In this document: piece by piece, positions 468 to 8,378 of the stretch
Layout: each line of letters begins with the position of its first letter
Numbering within the stretch: position 1 is the stretch's first letter
Origin: a bacterium BMS3Abin06
GTDB lineage: Bacteria; Nitrospirota; Thermodesulfovibrionia; UBA6902
Assembly: GCA_002897895.1 (NCBI GenBank)
Contig: BDSY01000022.1
Coordinates: 1-64,000 of the forward strand
Direction: 5' to 3'
DNA: 64,000 bases
Program-made: the position numbers and the translations under genes
The notes under the pieces: generated by a model
What the model was told of the DNA's origin: nothing
Database searches by the model: none
What the model saw: the letters and a program-made list of their open reading frames with translations, nothing else

Positions 468-1508
468 CTAAACCGAATTAATAATCTCGCCTGCTATTTC
501 GTCAAGAGGCACGATTTTATCTGCAATGCCTGCGTTGACAACCGCCTTCGGCATGCCGTACACAACACATGTTTCTTCGCTCTCAGCAATGGTCTTGCCG
601 CCTTTATTCTTGATTTCTCCCATCCCTTTTTCACCGTCATTGCCAAGGCCGGTAAGGATTACGCCGAGCACATATGCGGAGAAATTTTGCGCAATTGAAA
701 GCATGAGCATATCTACGGAAGGTCTGTATATATATTCTCCCACGTCTTCTGAAATAGCTATGCAGGTTTCTATTGATTTTTTACGTTTTACTTCCATATG
801 CCCTCCCCCGGGCGCTATAAATACTGTCCCTTTTTTAAGAGGTTCACCGTCTTCAGCTTCCTTGACTTTAATCTTGCTCAATTGATTCAATCGTTCCGCA
901 AATGCCCCGGTAAAAGACGCAGGCATATGCTGGGCAATGAGAATAGGGACAGGAAAATCTTCAGGGAACTGGGTAATTATGTTTTGCAATGCCCTGGGTC
1001 CTCCTGTGGAGGAACCTATTGTAACAATACTTATTCTCCGTTGAGATGTGTACTGTGACGCTTTCGGCATCCGGAGAGGTTTATATGAGTGTTTTATAAT
1101 TCTTCTTGCCGGTCTTTTTTTGCCGATACCCTTGATTTTTTCTACCAGGATTTCCCTGATTTTGACTATGTTGACAGAGAGATCAGAGAGATTCTTGGGG
1201 ATAAAATCAACGGCGCCGATCTCAAGGGCGTCAAGTGTTGCCTTTGCGCCTTCAGTAGTCAGCGAACTGACCATCAAGACCGGCACGGGGTTTTTCGCCA
1301 TTATATGTTTAAGGGCCTCAACTCCGTCCATCCTCGGCATTTCAATGTCCAGGGTAACAACATCAGGATTGAGTGAAGATACTTTTTCAACAGCTTCAAT
1401 TCCGTCCCTTGCGGTGCCGATAACCCGGAGACCGGGATCGGATGAAATCATGCTGGAGAGGGTGTTTCTCATAAAAGCCGAGTCATCGACAATCAGGACA
1501 TTAATCAT
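468..1508 (-). CDS. cheB: CheB receptor methylesterase/deamidase
   Basis: CheB removes methyl groups from chemoreceptor glutamates and is switched on by phosphorylation from CheA, giving adaptation. The 346-residue protein has an N-terminal receiver domain (about 1-120) with phospho-acceptor Asp54 in TLDIEMPRMDG, a basic linker, and a C-terminal esterase domain (about 155-346). The catalytic serine is Ser167 in GSSTGG, the histidine is His194 in AQHMP and the aspartate is Asp291 in GLGNDG, so the triad is complete. Length matches the family. It follows cheW by 84 bp in the same operon. No chemoreceptor gene is present in this window. Confidence 0.96.
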   Translation of the reverse strand: MINVLIVDDSAFMRNTLSSMISSDPGLRVIGTARDGIEAVEKVSSLNPDVVTLDIEMPRMDGVEALKHIMAKNPVPVLMVSSLTTEGAKATLDALEIGAVDFIPKNLSDLSVNIVKIREILVEKIKGIGKKRPARRIIKHSYKPLRMPKASQYTSQRRISIVTIGSSTGGPRALQNIITQFPEDFPVPILIAQHMPASFTGAFAERLNQLSKIKVKEAEDGEPLKKGTVFIAPGGGHMEVKRKKSIETCIAISEDVGEYIYRPSVDMLMLSIAQNFSAYVLGVILTGLGNDGEKGMGEIKNKGGKTIAESEETCVVYGMPKAVVNAGIADKIVPLDEIAGEIINSV

Positions 1509-1592: not shown

Positions 1593-2048
1593 CTACAGTT
1601 GCACAGCTTCTCCCATCAACTTATCGATATCAATGAGAATTATGAGTCTTTTTTCGAGTTTTGCTATTCCTTTTATAAACATCCTGCTCGTGTTTGATGT
1701 CACGGGAGGAGAGGGTTCCACTATATCTGATGGTATTCTCAGTACTTCTGATACAGAATCAACAATAAGCCCGTTTGTCACCCCCTGTATATCCATTATT
1801 ATTATTCTTGTTGTGTCATCGGCATTTTTTTCAGGAAGTCCGAATTTCTTTCTGAGGTTTATCACAGGGATGACTCTTCCCCTGAGATTCACCACTCCCT
1901 CCACATACCCCGGCGCATTCGGAACATTTGTGATCTCTGTTGTTCTGTTTATTTCCTGAACATTCAGGATGTCGACCGCATATTCTTCATTGGCGAGTGT
2001 GAAAGTAACAAGCTGCAATACCTGTTCTGTTACTGTTGAAGTTTCCAT
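1593..2048 (-). CDS. cheW: CheW coupling protein
   Basis: A single CheW domain of 151 residues that links chemoreceptors to CheA in the signalling array. The family blocks are clear: NLRGRVIPVINLRKKFG in the middle and KLEKRLIILIDIDKL near the end. A strong AGAGGAGG ribosome site sits eight bases before the ATG. It is the second CheW-type domain in the operon; the first is the N-terminus of the CheW-CheZ fusion just upstream. The 95-bp gap between them holds an 18-bp inverted repeat. Confidence 0.95.
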   Translation of the reverse strand: METSTVTEQVLQLVTFTLANEEYAVDILNVQEINRTTEITNVPNAPGYVEGVVNLRGRVIPVINLRKKFGLPEKNADDTTRIIIMDIQGVTNGLIVDSVSEVLRIPSDIVEPSPPVTSNTSRMFIKGIAKLEKRLIILIDIDKLMGEAVQL

Positions 2049-2143: not shown

Positions 2144-3382
2144 TTAAAAACCAAAATCATTCAAAAGCGCTTCAACATCGGATTGAGTAACTTTTTCCAC
2201 GGATTCTTCTTCGCCACCTGCGGCATTAGCCTCGTCTCCGCCGGTTAAGGCAGCGGCCTGTTCAGTATCACCCTTTATTGAGACGCCGAATTGTGTTATC
2301 AGTCTCAACAGCTCGGCTTCAACACTATTTACAAGATCAATGACCTTTTTTATGGTTTGCCCTGTGATGTCCTGAAACTGCTGCGCGGTAAGAATCGTTG
2401 TCAGGTCAGCCTCGAGTGAATCCTTGAATGCATTCAGATATCTGACGTCTTCATCATGGCCCTTTATGTTTTTAATATGCCCTGAAAGCTCATCAGAGTT
2501 TTCTAAATATGTCTCAACTATTCCCATTGTTTTGTTAGCGGCATCTTCTGTTTTTGAGATCACAAACTCCAGTTTGTCAACCGCGTTAGGAACATCATCC
2601 CTGGTCAGTTTTTGAAGGCCGTGGTCAACAGCCCCCTTGAAGTCCTGGAGTGAGTTATGAAGTTTCCTCGTTATCTTTCCGACTTCCATGAAAAGCTCGT
2701 TGTCTGTTTCATTGACAAGCTGTTCAACAATACCTTCCACCTTTTGATATTCCTGGTTTGCCAGGGCGTCCATGAAAGTCAGCATTGTGTCAAACACATT
2801 GTGTTTCGGGTCATTTTTTTCGAACTTGTCCCCGAAGAACTCTTTTGCATCATGCAGTTCCTTAACAGTGACTTTCCCGGCAATAGTGTCTACTTCTTTG
2901 ATTACTTCAACGATATTTTCATTGCCTGTCTCTTTTACATCAATTATTGCATCTTCCAGCAGACTCATATCATCGAGAGGGAGCAGCTTCCTGATATCGA
3001 GAAGGACTATAAGTTTGTTATCGATTTTTGCAACTCCTTCTATGTTTTCTACATTGGTATTAAAAAATTTTTCGGGAGGCTCTATCTGTGATTCATCTGC
3101 GTTGATGACACCTGTTATCCCGTCTACGATGATTCCGAATATTATTTTCCCGGAGGCAAGAACTATTACGGTATTGCCGGTATTTTCATCAAATGCGGCA
3201 TTCAGGAGGTTTTTAAGGTTTACTATTGGAATAATGGACCCTCTGAGGTTTGATATGCCTTTCACATACGGCGGCAGTTCAGGCAATGCAGTAACGGAAG
3301 GCATGCCGATTATTTCGCGCACCGTTAAGATCGGAATCATGTATTCACCCGTGCCGACATTAAATCCTATATATTGTTGCAT
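2144..3382 (-). CDS. CheW-CheZ fusion: array-anchored CheY phosphatase
   Basis: A 412-residue protein that joins two chemotaxis functions. Residues 1-145 form a CheW domain (NLRGSIIPIVNLKNLL at 45-60, KIDNKLIVLLDIRKLL at 119-134). Residues from about 195 to the end look like CheZ, the phosphatase that dephosphorylates CheY-P: a long helical hairpin, the catalytic block QQFQDITGQ with Asp338 and Gln342 at the positions of E. coli Asp143 and Gln147, an acidic linker, and the terminal CheY-binding helix TQSDVEALLNDFGF. A 50-residue linker joins the parts. The gene follows cheA by 20 bp. The fusion would fix the phosphatase to the receptor-CheA array, as CheA-short does in enterics. Domain identities are read from motifs; the array placement is inference. 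Confidence 0.9.
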   Translation of the reverse strand: MQQYIGFNVGTGEYMIPILTVREIIGMPSVTALPELPPYVKGISNLRGSIIPIVNLKNLLNAAFDENTGNTVIVLASGKIIFGIIVDGITGVINADESQIEPPEKFFNTNVENIEGVAKIDNKLIVLLDIRKLLPLDDMSLLEDAIIDVKETGNENIVEVIKEVDTIAGKVTVKELHDAKEFFGDKFEKNDPKHNVFDTMLTFMDALANQEYQKVEGIVEQLVNETDNELFMEVGKITRKLHNSLQDFKGAVDHGLQKLTRDDVPNAVDKLEFVISKTEDAANKTMGIVETYLENSDELSGHIKNIKGHDEDVRYLNAFKDSLEADLTTILTAQQFQDITGQTIKKVIDLVNSVEAELLRLITQFGVSIKGDTEQAAALTGGDEANAAGGEEESVEKVTQSDVEALLNDFGF

Positions 3383-3402: not shown

Positions 3403-5262
3403 CTATACCTTGGTCAGTTCAAATATATTTCTGGACATACCCGAGACATCAAGAATAAAAACAACTTTTCCATCCCCCGTTATGGTTGCCCCGAGCACAT
3501 ACGAAGAGGTTGTATCTATGCCGTCAAGTGTCTTTATAACAACTTCCTCCTGGCCCAGGAGACTGTCGACGGCAATACAGAATCTCTTGTCGCCCATTGC
3601 AATAACGACTATATATTTGTGATCCGGCTCATTGCCGTTATTTCCGATAGATCCGTTGCCGAGGAGGCTGTTAAGCTCAAACAGGGGGCAGACCTTATCG
3701 CGAATAACTATTACATTCTGGCCTGTGATATTCTCGATTTCATCTTTTGAAACCTTCAGGGTTTCTTCTATGGGCGAGAGCGGTATGGCGTACTTGGCCC
3801 CGGAGACCTCAATCATTAATGCCTGAATTATGGCAAGTGTCAAGGGTATGCAGATTTTAAATGTTGTGCCTGCGTTTTTTTCAGTTGATACCTCGACATA
3901 GCCGTTTAGCAGGGATATGTTGGTTTTTACGACATCCATCCCGACCCCTCGTCCGCTGAGTTCTGTTGCAACTGCTTTTGTGGAAGAACCGGGCATAAAT
4001 ATAATGTCGGTAGCAGCCTCATCGGACATTTTCCGGGCTTCTTCTTCTGTTAGGAGCCCTTTTTCAATTGCCTTCTGTTTCAGCTTTTCTATATTTATGC
4101 CTTGCCCGTCATCTGAAACTTCAATAACGATCTGGTTGCCTTTCTGGAAGATGTTTATGACGATCCTGCCTTTTGGCGGCTTGCCTTTGGCTATCCTTTC
4201 CTCTGTTGATTCAAGTCCGTGGTCAATTGAATTTCTTAATATATGGGTCATGGGATCCCCTATATGCTCTATCACCGATTTATCAACTTCAGTGCCTTCC
4301 CCGGAAATTATGAGTTCAACCTCTTTATTGACTGAAGCCGATATATCCCTCACGAGTCTCGGGAACTTGCTTAAAACCTTTTTAATGGGCTGCATCCGTA
4401 TCTTCATCACTGCGAGCTGCAGATCGGACGTCACACGATCCAAAAATGAAACCGTTTCCATCAGCATCTCTGTTTGCGAATCAGCGCTGTAATTCTGATT
4501 AAAGTAGTTTGATATGTTTAAAAGCCTGTTTCTTACGAGAACCACTTCACCTGCAAGGTCCATTACCTTGTCGATTCTTTCAACATCCACCCGTAGATTC
4601 TGAGCGGTCTCTTTCGGCTTTTGAGCGTTATCTTTTATTTCTTGTGCAACTTCTCCGGGTTTTTGTTCACCGGCTGAGGGAGACTCTGTTTTCGCATCGG
4701 GATTTTGCGAACTTTCGGGAATCCCTGCTATTTCAGGGGCTTCCTGAGGTTCAATATTTTCAGCAACAGGTGCAGCGGTTTCAGATTCAGTCGGTTTTAT
4801 TTCCTGTCCGCCGGTTGAATCCTCCACCGGCTCTTCAGATTCTTCAGAGGCAGTTGTTCCGGATATTGCGGTATTCAAGGCATCTTCCAGTTCCCTGACT
4901 AAGGGAGCAATATCCTCTTCTATCCCGTCTTTTGCTTTTAAATGCTCCAGCAGTAATCTGAGCATATCGATAGACTTGAGGATTACATCCATTAACTCTT
5001 TTGATAAAGAGAATTCTCCATCCCGGAGTTTCTTCATAATATTTTCTGATGAATGTGCGACCTTCACTATTAACTGAAACCCCAGGAATCCTGCTGCGCC
5101 TTTGATGGTGTGCATGGACCTGAAGATATCATTAAGCATATCCCTGTCCTGCCCCTTCTGTTCAAGCTCTACAAACAGGGGTTCGATCTTCTCAAGCGAT
5201 TCCTCGGCTTCGGTAATAAACTCGATTATTATTTCTTCCATTTCATCCATTTCATCAGTCAT
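3403..5262 (-). CDS. cheA: CheA chemotaxis histidine kinase
   Basis: CheA phosphorylates CheY and CheB in response to receptors. The 619-residue protein has an Hpt domain (1-125) with phospho-accepting His51 in MHTIKGAAGFLGF, a Glu/Pro-rich linker (about 130-220), a dimerisation segment beginning near DVERIDKVMDLAGEVV, an ATPase domain with N box HILRNSIDHGLE, DDGQGI and GRGVGMDVVK, and a C-terminal CheW-like P5 domain. There is no recognisable P2 domain for docking CheY; the low-complexity linker sits in its place. It lies 30 bp after cheY and 20 bp before the CheW-CheZ fusion. Confidence 0.96.
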   Translation of the reverse strand: MTDEMDEMEEIIIEFITEAEESLEKIEPLFVELEQKGQDRDMLNDIFRSMHTIKGAAGFLGFQLIVKVAHSSENIMKKLRDGEFSLSKELMDVILKSIDMLRLLLEHLKAKDGIEEDIAPLVRELEDALNTAISGTTASEESEEPVEDSTGGQEIKPTESETAAPVAENIEPQEAPEIAGIPESSQNPDAKTESPSAGEQKPGEVAQEIKDNAQKPKETAQNLRVDVERIDKVMDLAGEVVLVRNRLLNISNYFNQNYSADSQTEMLMETVSFLDRVTSDLQLAVMKIRMQPIKKVLSKFPRLVRDISASVNKEVELIISGEGTEVDKSVIEHIGDPMTHILRNSIDHGLESTEERIAKGKPPKGRIVINIFQKGNQIVIEVSDDGQGINIEKLKQKAIEKGLLTEEEARKMSDEAATDIIFMPGSSTKAVATELSGRGVGMDVVKTNISLLNGYVEVSTEKNAGTTFKICIPLTLAIIQALMIEVSGAKYAIPLSPIEETLKVSKDEIENITGQNVIVIRDKVCPLFELNSLLGNGSIGNNGNEPDHKYIVVIAMGDKRFCIAVDSLLGQEEVVIKTLDGIDTTSSYVLGATITGDGKVVFILDVSGMSRNIFELTKV

Positions 5263-5292: not shown

Positions 5293-5682
5293 TTATGAAT
5301 TAATCTTCTCAAGTATCTTGTCCATCTTCTCTTTTAAGACCTCTCCTGTAAAAGGTTTGACGATATAGTTGTTGACGCCTGCCTGGATGGCTGTCACGAC
5401 TTTTTCTTTTTCCGCCTCGGCAGTGACCATCAGGACTGGTATGTCTTTTAATTCATCGTCGCTTCTTATTTTTTTCAAAAGTTCGAGGCCGTCCATATTG
5501 GGCATGTTCCAGTCACTCACTACAAAACCGAATCCATTGCCTTTTAATTTTGAATAGGCCTGTGCTCCGTCTTCAGCTTCTTCGATATTTGCATATCCTA
5601 TTTGCCTGAGAAGGTTCTTGACTATTCTTCTCATGGTGGAGAAATCATCGACCACGAGTATTTTCATGTTTAAATCAGACAT
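5293..5682 (-). CDS. cheY: CheY chemotaxis response regulator
   Basis: A stand-alone receiver domain of 129 residues that carries the signal from CheA to the flagellar switch. It is strikingly like E. coli CheY: phospho-acceptor Asp57 in [15 protein letters not shown], Thr87 and Lys109 in YIVKPF are all at the same numbers. That similarity fits a CheZ-regulated CheY that binds FliM. It sits two bases downstream of a second receiver gene and 30 bp before cheA. Confidence 0.95.
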
Positions 5683-5684
5683 TT

Positions 5685-6065
5685 TTATCCTCCTTTAGCA
5701 AACATCTGCTTTATGATAGATTTTATGTTTGCAGCAATTGCATCTGCTGTCACGGGCTTGACAATATATCCATTGGCCCCGTTACTGAATGCCTTTTTTC
5801 TTTCCGCTTCATCGTTTTCAGTTGTAACCATCAGGATCGGTATTTCCGATAAATTCGGATCTGCACGCAGGGTTTTTACAAGCTCCATGCCGTCCATATA
5901 CGGCATGTTAAGGTCTGTCATTACGAGGTTGACGCTGTCCATACTCAGCTTTTCAATTGCATCGAGACCGTTCTCGGCAAACACTACGGAATATCCCCTT
6001 GATTTCAGATAATGCCCTAAAAGTCTTCTTGTTGTCTGACAATCGTCGACAATCATTATTTTCAT
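5685..6065 (-). CDS. Second CheY-like receiver protein
   Basis: A 126-residue single receiver domain. Acidic residues near the start (VDD), the phospho-acceptor Asp51 in [11 protein letters not shown], the TT pair in MVTTEND and the Lys in YIVKP are intact, so it should be phosphorylated. It is less like enteric CheY than its neighbour and could act as a phosphate sink or a second output; which one cannot be told from sequence. The gene is two bases upstream of cheY and 70 bp after cheR. Confidence 0.9.
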
Positions 6066-6135: not shown

Positions 6136-6960
6136 TCAAACCTTCTGGTACATAATTACTTTATCAACAACATTCGGCCTTAAAGCCCTCGTTACACTGT
6201 GGAGACTTTCCGAGGACCCTATAAACAGGTATCCGCCGGGATTCAGGCTGTCATAAAGGTTTGACACAGCTCGCTGTTTTGCCCTGGTGTCAAAGTAAAT
6301 CAGTACGTTGCGGCAGAAGATAATATCCATGCCCCTCAGTTGTTTGATGTTTTTATCTTCAATCAGATTTACCTTCATGAACTTAACCGTGTTTTTGACG
6401 GAAGAGCTGAGCGTGTAAGACTGGCCACTGTTTGAGAAATATTTTTTGAGATAAGGTTCGGGCAGGTTTCTGATGGAATAGGAATTGTAGACAGCCTGTT
6501 TTGCTGAATCCAGAACCCCTTCACTCAGGTCCGATCCGTAAATCTCAAATTGTTTTTGTAAATAGCCTTTTTCCATAAGCATCAATGAAATTGTATAGGG
6601 CTCCTCGCCTGTCGAACATGCGGCGGACCATATTCTGACATTCTTTGCCCCCTTCTTTTGTGCCAGTATCCTGGGCATTATTCCCTCTACACATACATTG
6701 AGCTGCCGGGGTTCCCTGAAAAAATACGTCTCATTAGTGGTCACGGCATCAAAAAGCCTGTTGAGATCATTCCCGTTTCTGCTCTGCTTTATAAGCTTGA
6801 GGTAATCCTCGAAGCTGTTTAACTTATTTTCCCGGATTATTCTTGAAAGCCTGTTTTCGATGAGATATTTCTTTGTATCGGATATATAGATACCGCTTTT
6901 TTCATATATATAGTCCCTGATATCTCTAAATGTAGATTCAGAGAGAGGCAAGTTCAGCAT
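6136..6960 (-). CDS. cheR: CheR chemoreceptor methyltransferase
   Basis: CheR methylates receptor glutamates using S-adenosylmethionine, opposing CheB. The 274-residue protein has an N-terminal helical domain (1-75), the conserved TNETYFFREPRQ block (about 75-86), the SAM-binding loop WSAACSTGEEPYT (111-123) and the DIIFCRNVLIYFD motif in the second half. No tetratricopeptide extension is present. Its start codon overlaps the end of the HEAT-repeat gene by 7 bp, so the two are probably translationally coupled. Confidence 0.96.
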   Translation of the reverse strand: MLNLPLSESTFRDIRDYIYEKSGIYISDTKKYLIENRLSRIIRENKLNSFEDYLKLIKQSRNGNDLNRLFDAVTTNETYFFREPRQLNVCVEGIMPRILAQKKGAKNVRIWSAACSTGEEPYTISLMLMEKGYLQKQFEIYGSDLSEGVLDSAKQAVYNSYSIRNLPEPYLKKYFSNSGQSYTLSSSVKNTVKFMKVNLIEDKNIKQLRGMDIIFCRNVLIYFDTRAKQRAVSNLYDSLNPGGYLFIGSSESLHSVTRALRPNVVDKVIMYQKV

Positions 6961-8378
6961 GAAACCTCCGAAGTGGAGTTTGAAGCATATCTTGACGCAA
7001 TCTCCCGGATATCGGCATTGAATTCATCAAGGCGCGATATAAACTCCCTGGAATTAATGCTTAGCAGTGAATTAATAAATTCATCAATGACATCGTTGTA
7101 TTTTTCATCATGAAGCAATTTTATCAGAGGTTCAAACGCAGCCGCTTCACCTATCCTTCCGAGTGCGGCAACCGCTGTTTTCCTGACGTGGCTGTCATGG
7201 TCATAAATTGCATCCATAAGGCTTTCTCTGGCCTGATCGTCGTCTATCTCGCCAAGTGATTTGACGCTTGATCTTCTGACATCCCTGTATTCGCTCTTCA
7301 GTAATTTTATGAGAGCGGGAACCGCCTCCGCGCACTTTAATTCTCCAATAATTTCTATAGCTACGGACTTTCCCCTGTATTTAATGGAACTGTCGTTGAG
7401 CAGATCTATGAGCAGGTTATTACAGCCAATGCTCCGGATAGCTTCTTTAAGCGCATACAGCTTGTCTTCATTTTCAGGATCGGACAGGTCTAAAGAACCT
7501 GCTGCATCAACCATATGATAAATTGCTTTTCCGGATTTGAGGGCAGCCAGCCCTTTGACGGCAATGAATTTATCTTCCCAATCCTCATCCTTCAGCATAT
7601 CAATCAATGCGTCTTCCATACCCGGCACATCGGGAAAAGATCCAATCAGTGCAAGGCTTTTTATAGCAGCGAGCTTTTCAAAACCCTCAGCTTCCGATAA
7701 ATGTCCGGTCAGGTATTGAGCAGCTTCAGGAGAGGCTATTCCCCCGAGCGCTTCAATTGCTGCAAATCTGATTGCCTCCGAAGGGCTTTTCAGGAGGGTG
7801 ATAATAGAGTTTATTGACCTTTCATCATTTAAGCCGGTAAGCGCTTCAATGGCAGAGAAACATACCCATTCATCATCATCTAATGCCTTTATGAGCTGGG
7901 GGATTGCCTTCCTGTACTGTAATGTGCCTAATGCCTTTGCCGCAGCTGCCCTTACATTTGCGTTTGAATCTCCTGTGAGCATTTCAACTAATTTTTCGGG
8001 GTAATTGCAATATCCGACATCGTTTATTATGTCCAGGGCGAATTTTCTGACATCATCGTCTTTATCATTTAACAGGATATAAAGAAGGGGGACAGCGATT
8101 TCCCCCATCTCTCTCAGAATTACGAGCGCAGTGTTTCTCAGAAAGGAATTTTCCCTGAGAAGCGGAAGTATCATATAAGCCGTAGTCTCTCCCTTTATTT
8201 CCATAAGAGAGTGCATTGCCGCATCCTGTACTCCTAAATTCTCATCCCTCAATGCTTTGATCAGCGGATATATAGCCCTTTCATCTCCTTCTGCGAGCGC
8301 CTCGGCAGCAGAGCGTCTCTTTGACGCATCTTCATCGTTAATAGTTCTCAGTAATCTTTTAAGTTTTGCTGTGTGCAT
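6954..8378 (-). CDS. HEAT-repeat protein heading the chemotaxis operon
   Basis: A 474-residue all-helical solenoid built from roughly a dozen HEAT (PBS-lyase type) repeats of about 31 residues, for example DVRKFALDIINDVG, NVRAAAAKALGTL, HVRKTAVAALGRIGE. No enzyme motif, signal peptide or membrane segment is visible, so it is probably a cytoplasmic scaffold or docking protein. It is the first gene of the chemotaxis operon and overlaps cheR by 7 bp. That coupling suggests it works with CheR or the receptor array, but this is inference from position only. Confidence 0.85.
   Translation of the reverse strand: MHTAKLKRLLRTINDEDASKRRSAAEALAEGDERAIYPLIKALRDENLGVQDAAMHSLMEIKGETTAYMILPLLRENSFLRNTALVILREMGEIAVPLLYILLNDKDDDVRKFALDIINDVGYCNYPEKLVEMLTGDSNANVRAAAAKALGTLQYRKAIPQLIKALDDDEWVCFSAIEALTGLNDERSINSIITLLKSPSEAIRFAAIEALGGIASPEAAQYLTGHLSEAEGFEKLAAIKSLALIGSFPDVPGMEDALIDMLKDEDWEDKFIAVKGLAALKSGKAIYHMVDAAGSLDLSDPENEDKLYALKEAIRSIGCNNLLIDLLNDSSIKYRGKSVAIEIIGELKCAEAVPALIKLLKSEYRDVRRSSVKSLGEIDDDQARESLMDAIYDHDSHVRKTAVAALGRIGEAAAFEPLIKLLHDEKYNDVIDEFINSLLSINSREFISRLDEFNADIREIASRYASNSTSEVSC

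Follow-up and report, generated by a model that had tools for sequence, protein, structure and literature searches.

A CheW-CheZ fusion protein appears to fix the CheY off-switch into the sensor lattice in a large group of Nitrospirota

Where a cell places its CheY phosphatase is an old question of chemotaxis; in E. coli, CheZ docking at the array alters the dose response (discussed in PMC2673030), but it is partial and runs via CheA-short. The window (the whole stretch of DNA analysed, 64,000 nucleotides from the Nitrospirota bacterium BMS3Abin06) raises the question again, for on its minus strand a single uninterrupted open reading frame at 2144-3382, here called cheWZ, joins a CheW coupling domain to a CheZ phosphatase domain. 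Could this protein be a phosphatase built into the array itself? The gene and its parts are arranged as follows:

2144..3382, minus strand: cheWZ, CheW-CheZ fusion gene, 412 aa (Pfam, phmmer, family profile)
2981..3376, minus strand: CheW domain, residues 3-134 (Pfam PF01584; Foldseek of the model)
2699..2980, minus strand: linker, residues 135-228 (model and family alignment)
2147..2698, minus strand: CheZ phosphatase domain, residues 229-412 (Pfam PF04344; profile against 1kmi_Z 12-214)
2357..2371, minus strand: catalytic DxxxQ motif, D338 and Q342, equivalent to E. coli D143 and Q147 (alignment)
2147..2185, minus strand: C-terminal CheY-binding helix QSDVEALLNDFGF, residues 400-412 (aligned with E. 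coli CheZ QDQVDDLLDSLGF; helix in the model)

The domain content agreed with the first-pass annotation of this DNA, which had described a complete CheW domain followed by CheZ and had named a profile search as the check. Pfam placed CheW at residues 3-134 (3.1e-33; 114.7 bits against a curated cut-off of 23.5) and found CheZ in the C-terminal part (4.1e-35; 122 bits against a curated cut-off of 30.7), with the CheZ match split into two stretches (2459-2698 and 2147-2425) and best over residues 320-412. In the phmmer alignment, residues 323-365 paired with residues 128-170 of E. coli CheZ (1kmi) at an offset of 195, so that D338 corresponds to D143 and Q342 to Q147, as had been proposed, and the C-terminus likewise aligned with the CheY-binding helix of E. 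coli CheZ. A family profile built from 64 CheWZ homologues covered residues 12-214 of E. coli CheZ (2.5e-29). Across these homologues Q337, D338, T340, G341, Q342 and, at the C-terminus, Q400 and L407 are invariant, and there is little or no variation in the FQD(L/I)TGQ motif around the catalytic residues or in the CheY-binding C-terminus. The fused CheW retains residues aligned to E. coli V36, E38, G57, R62, G63, G99 and V108, with R47 and G83 of CheWZ invariant in all 64 sequences, and a linker motif of the GG(E/K)..VKE type is conserved within the family. Jukes-Cantor-corrected dN/dS against the homologue L043 was about 0.17 for the CheW half and about 0.25 for the CheZ half; both halves are under purifying selection, and both look functional.

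An AlphaFold2 model of CheWZ was of moderate confidence (mean pLDDT 67, pTM 0.35) and did not fix the relative placement of the domains. Residues 1-143 form the CheW double barrel, for which Foldseek gave a TM of 0.83, by target length, against E. coli CheW (6s1k_C), followed by short beta strands of low confidence in a conserved stretch (residues 144-188), a helical hairpin (192-226), two long helices (228-304 and 310-365) and the predicted C-terminal CheY-binding helix (400-409). Foldseek searches with the model returned useful significance for the CheW half only, and the CheZ half was identified via the sequence profile.

Upstream and downstream of cheWZ lies a minus-strand cluster in the order HEAT-repeat protein, cheR, cheY1, cheY2, cheA, cheWZ, cheW and cheB, adjoined by a plus-strand fli/flh operon of flagellar genes. 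Its other che genes are:

468..1508, minus strand: cheB (named from its translation; orthologues keep this place in related loci)
1593..2048, minus strand: separate cheW, downstream of cheWZ in the same cluster (Pfam CheW match)
3403..5262, minus strand: cheA kinase, 619 aa, 20 bp upstream of cheWZ (CheW-like P5 domain matched)
5293..5682, minus strand: cheY2, a motor-type CheY with the CheZ-contact lysine (E. coli K92; alignment)
5685..6065, minus strand: cheY1, CheY-like, without a K92 equivalent (alignment)
6136..6960, minus strand: cheR (named from its translation; orthologues keep this place in related loci)

The HEAT-repeat protein beside cheR (6954-8378) is kept in che clusters throughout the class and in one Syntrophorhabdaceae MAG. 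In the genome from which the window comes, cheWZ is the sole CheZ over the cut-off, alongside three CheA and three stand-alone CheW genes (the one downstream of cheWZ and two elsewhere). A search of this genome for a second stand-alone CheZ found none, the only other match falling in a receptor whose CheZ-like motif is weak (L003, contig C106, 802-2010). That receptor and four others (L208, L209, L210 and L211) are MCP-domain proteins ending in a conserved QFQDITRQ, a CheZ-like DxxxQ that Pfam scores under its CheZ cut-off (2.8e-5), possibly a phosphatase-like motif built into the receptor. The same genome also encodes, outside the window's cluster, a 213-residue protein of CheC/CheX type (L041, contig C54; CheC 2.6e-10, CheX 3.4e-8), predicted to be a second kind of CheY phosphatase.

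How widely does the fusion occur? CheZ exceeded the cut-off in 170 of the 296 genomes sampled from the phylum. In the window's class CheZ frames run to about 390-480 residues, and the CheW-CheZ architecture is spread across Thermodesulfovibrionia, single-contig genomes included; carriers include Nitrospirota MAGs, Thermodesulfovibrio MAGs and Candidatus Magnetobacterium casense MYR-1. Both Pfam domains were present in 26/26 members of our alignment A1, three of which belong to family f20 from outside the class. Among 20 related genomes from 16 genera (completeness 93-100%), the fused frame is the sole CheZ over the cut-off; the remaining CheZ matches in this set are weak and come from longer frames that encode other proteins (receptors, in the cases checked), and one attains 31.5 bits, but only by summing with its neighbours.

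Outside Nitrospirota, fusions were found in 4 of 297 sampled Desulfobacterota, and the CheZ loci opened in 399 Pseudomonadota (best matches and long frames, a selection that rare fusions could escape) yielded none. CheWZ-like genes also occur in MAGs labelled Methylococcaceae, Desulfuromonas, Nitrososphaeria and Micrarchaeota (L064, L072, L075 and L097), probably through binning errors, as L064 and L072 look near-identical. Long CheZ proteins of Desulfobacterota follow other plans: that of Desulfacinum infernum (L138, 1501-2934) and the similar L099 and L100, at about 470-480 aa, carry at the N-terminus, in place of CheW, 240 residues that weakly resemble Hpt (0.009), and in L187, L188, L192 and others (about 390-540 aa) a long insert of up to about 200 residues splits the CheZ halves.

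We propose, with a probability of about 0.72, that CheWZ is the flagellar CheY-P phosphatase of Thermodesulfovibrionia and enters the CheA/CheW rings via its own CheW domain. The CheW domain would fill CheW positions in the CheA-P5/CheW rings beneath the receptors, competing with stand-alone CheW for array sites, while the CheZ part, on a linker of roughly 90 residues, would dephosphorylate CheY2-P where CheA produces it. An array-tethered phosphatase, as the first-pass annotation had it, is the natural reading of a protein that unites a complete CheW with a catalytically intact CheZ. We count the sole-CheZ status, the conserved cluster and the probable repeated origin in favour of CheWZ as array phosphatase, and its position in Magnetobacterium-type and f20 loci, where it takes the cheZ place flanked by cheY and cheA, in favour of its being the phosphatase. 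A further expectation, that the fusion sets how much phosphatase there is per coupling protein, found no support: besides the three separate cheW genes of its own genome, stand-alone CheW is present in 12/12 related genomes inventoried for CheW, none of which has CheWZ as its only CheW (the leanest, G209, has a single copy each of CheW, CheWZ and CheA), so that the ratio would hang on expression and competition.

The CheY proteins suggest a substrate. In the E. coli complex, CheY K92 contacts CheZ D143, and a lysine is found at this position in CheY2 at 35/35 loci and in CheY1 at 0/34, which makes CheY2 the likely substrate of CheWZ; CheY1 is predicted not to be one. Compared with E. coli CheZ (1kmi, PF04344), with which it shares the phosphatase domain, D143/Q147, the C-terminal CheY-binding helix and a cheY-cheZ-cheA neighbourhood, CheWZ adds an N-terminal CheW domain and the 90-residue linker, but has lost the apical loop with W94/F98 (Pfam profile positions of about 79-110 are missing). 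E. coli CheZ binds CheA-short through this loop and its two aromatics (PMC7750401), and the CheA-short route is therefore unlikely for CheWZ, in which a CheW-based tether would substitute for it. Stand-alone CheZ of Nitrospira and Desulfobacterota are also without W94/F98, so that fused proteins are not alone in this loss.

A rival to be taken seriously, if a tentative one, is that the CheW domain of CheWZ is a targeting tag for CheZ and that the separate CheW does all of the ring coupling. Every genome inventoried supplies such a CheW, so the fused domain may not be necessary for coupling, and some lineages dropped the CheW half yet kept CheZ, which makes the tether dispensable in some hosts. 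Against a mere tag, the fused CheW has kept its fold and the residues aligned with those used for coupling in E. coli, it is under strong purifying selection, and several loci have no separate cheW in the main cluster; the single-contig genome G079, for example, has its stand-alone cheW at a distance of about 1.1 Mb.

A stronger form of the ring-insertion reading follows from the dimer. E. coli CheZ is a dimer (1kmi), so a CheWZ dimer would probably bear two CheW domains and could fill two ring sites. That the homodimer, in the manner of CheA, plugs its two CheW-fold domains into neighbouring rings, and that such a protein arose independently at least twice, seems to us rather unlikely. If it were true, kinase and phosphatase would compete for lattice sites, and the array itself would set the balance between making and removing CheY-P.

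How often the two domains were joined can be approached through locus order and trees. Sister Nitrospira lineages carry a stand-alone CheZ at the cheY-cheZ-cheA position, which is the ancestral one, and family f27 has a stand-alone CheZ of about 220 residues in the order cheR-cheY-cheZ-cheA-cheB (L134). Magnetobacterium-type and f20 loci (L087, L132 and L133) have CheWZ at that place of cheZ; in the window's relatives it stands after cheA. The CheW tree gathers the 46 fused domains of the core in a single clade (bootstrap 98, SH-aLRT 91) and puts those of f20, L101, L152 and L153 with stand-alone CheW; in the CheZ tree, a 100/100 branch splits these same outliers from the core. Stand-alone CheZ proteins also lie inside the fused clade (L092 and L098/L144, starred, and L086, whose position is not settled), and the N-terminal stretch of L086, L090 and L091 resembles the fusion linker; nesting and linker-like start together point to loss of the CheW half in L086, L090-L092 and L098/L144. 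Since both trees set some fusions apart from the main family, the join was probably made at least twice, with later splits in a few lineages.

One ancient fusion at the base of Nitrospirota, followed by many losses, is in our view a doubtful alternative. Clear CheW losses are known (L086, L092 and L098/L144), and holding all fused CheW together was only borderline in the CheW half (p-AU 0.052). The CheZ half, however, rejects a single clade of all fusions and nested stand-alones (p-AU 0.0002, or 0.0008 without L101, values to be read with care because the grouping was named after quick trees had been seen), and in the CheW tree the core fused CheW makes up its own clade in every bootstrap tree, with f20, L101, L152 and L153 beside stand-alone CheW. 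Two further proteins were noted. L101 (5932-7083, Nitrospirota MAG), in which CheW, a weak HAMP-like segment and CheZ follow one another, is probably a separate fusion. In L124 (1625-2665; G044, family f28), a CheZ, the CheW-like N-terminus has diverged strongly and scores narrowly below the cut-off (8.7e-5); this protein may be a fusion in decay or yet another one.

Three kinds of published chemotaxis protein come nearest to CheWZ in build. CheV, a CheW with a receiver domain that coexists with classical CheW, shares with CheWZ the plan of a CheW domain bearing a second signalling domain; in CheWZ that second domain is a CheY-P phosphatase instead of a receiver, and Pfam found no receiver domain, the hallmark of CheV, in CheWZ. 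In Leptospirae, CheA is fused to CheC/CheX (PMC10542144), which likewise builds a CheY phosphatase into a core array component, but the CheWZ phosphatase belongs to an unrelated family and its partner is the coupling protein, where theirs is the kinase. In the F2 arrays of Spirochaetia, a CheW-CheR-like ring protein accompanies classical CheW, and its CheR-like half is judged inactive (PMC7666581). Both proteins combine CheW, a linker and the domain of an adaptation or termination enzyme, each within one bacterial class and with classical CheW present, and CheWZ might by this likeness be a ring component of the Treponema type, serving geometry, with phosphatase activity secondary or lost. We consider this improbable: residues essential to CheR are altered in Treponema, whereas CheWZ retains the catalytic D/Q pair, FQD(L/I)TGQ and the C-terminus, and it is the sole CheZ.

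An artefact of assembly or gene prediction that fused adjacent genes can be dismissed with near certainty, for although cheW and cheZ are often neighbours, the fusion recurs in dozens of independent assemblies, single-contig genomes among them, its linker conserved and its frame free of stops. The first-pass annotation had already held that no frameshift was needed, and frameshift or misassembly is ruled out by the same one-frame architecture across many independent genomes.

The first-pass annotation had not counted the architecture as standard. A full-text literature search (with most subscription journals outside it) found no paper describing a CheW-CheZ fusion. The fusion is no curiosity of one genome; it is a class-wide and very probably repeatedly evolved trait. 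Domain databases may list the combination. An earlier survey limited CheZ to a length of 300 residues (PMC2829493), by which CheWZ would be excluded. A large Nitrospirota group appears to carry its CheY off-switch as a fixed part of the sensor lattice, with the phosphatase apparently hard-wired across a whole bacterial class and probably from more than one origin. CheWZ would thereby offer a clean system for testing why the source and the sink of CheY-P sit together.
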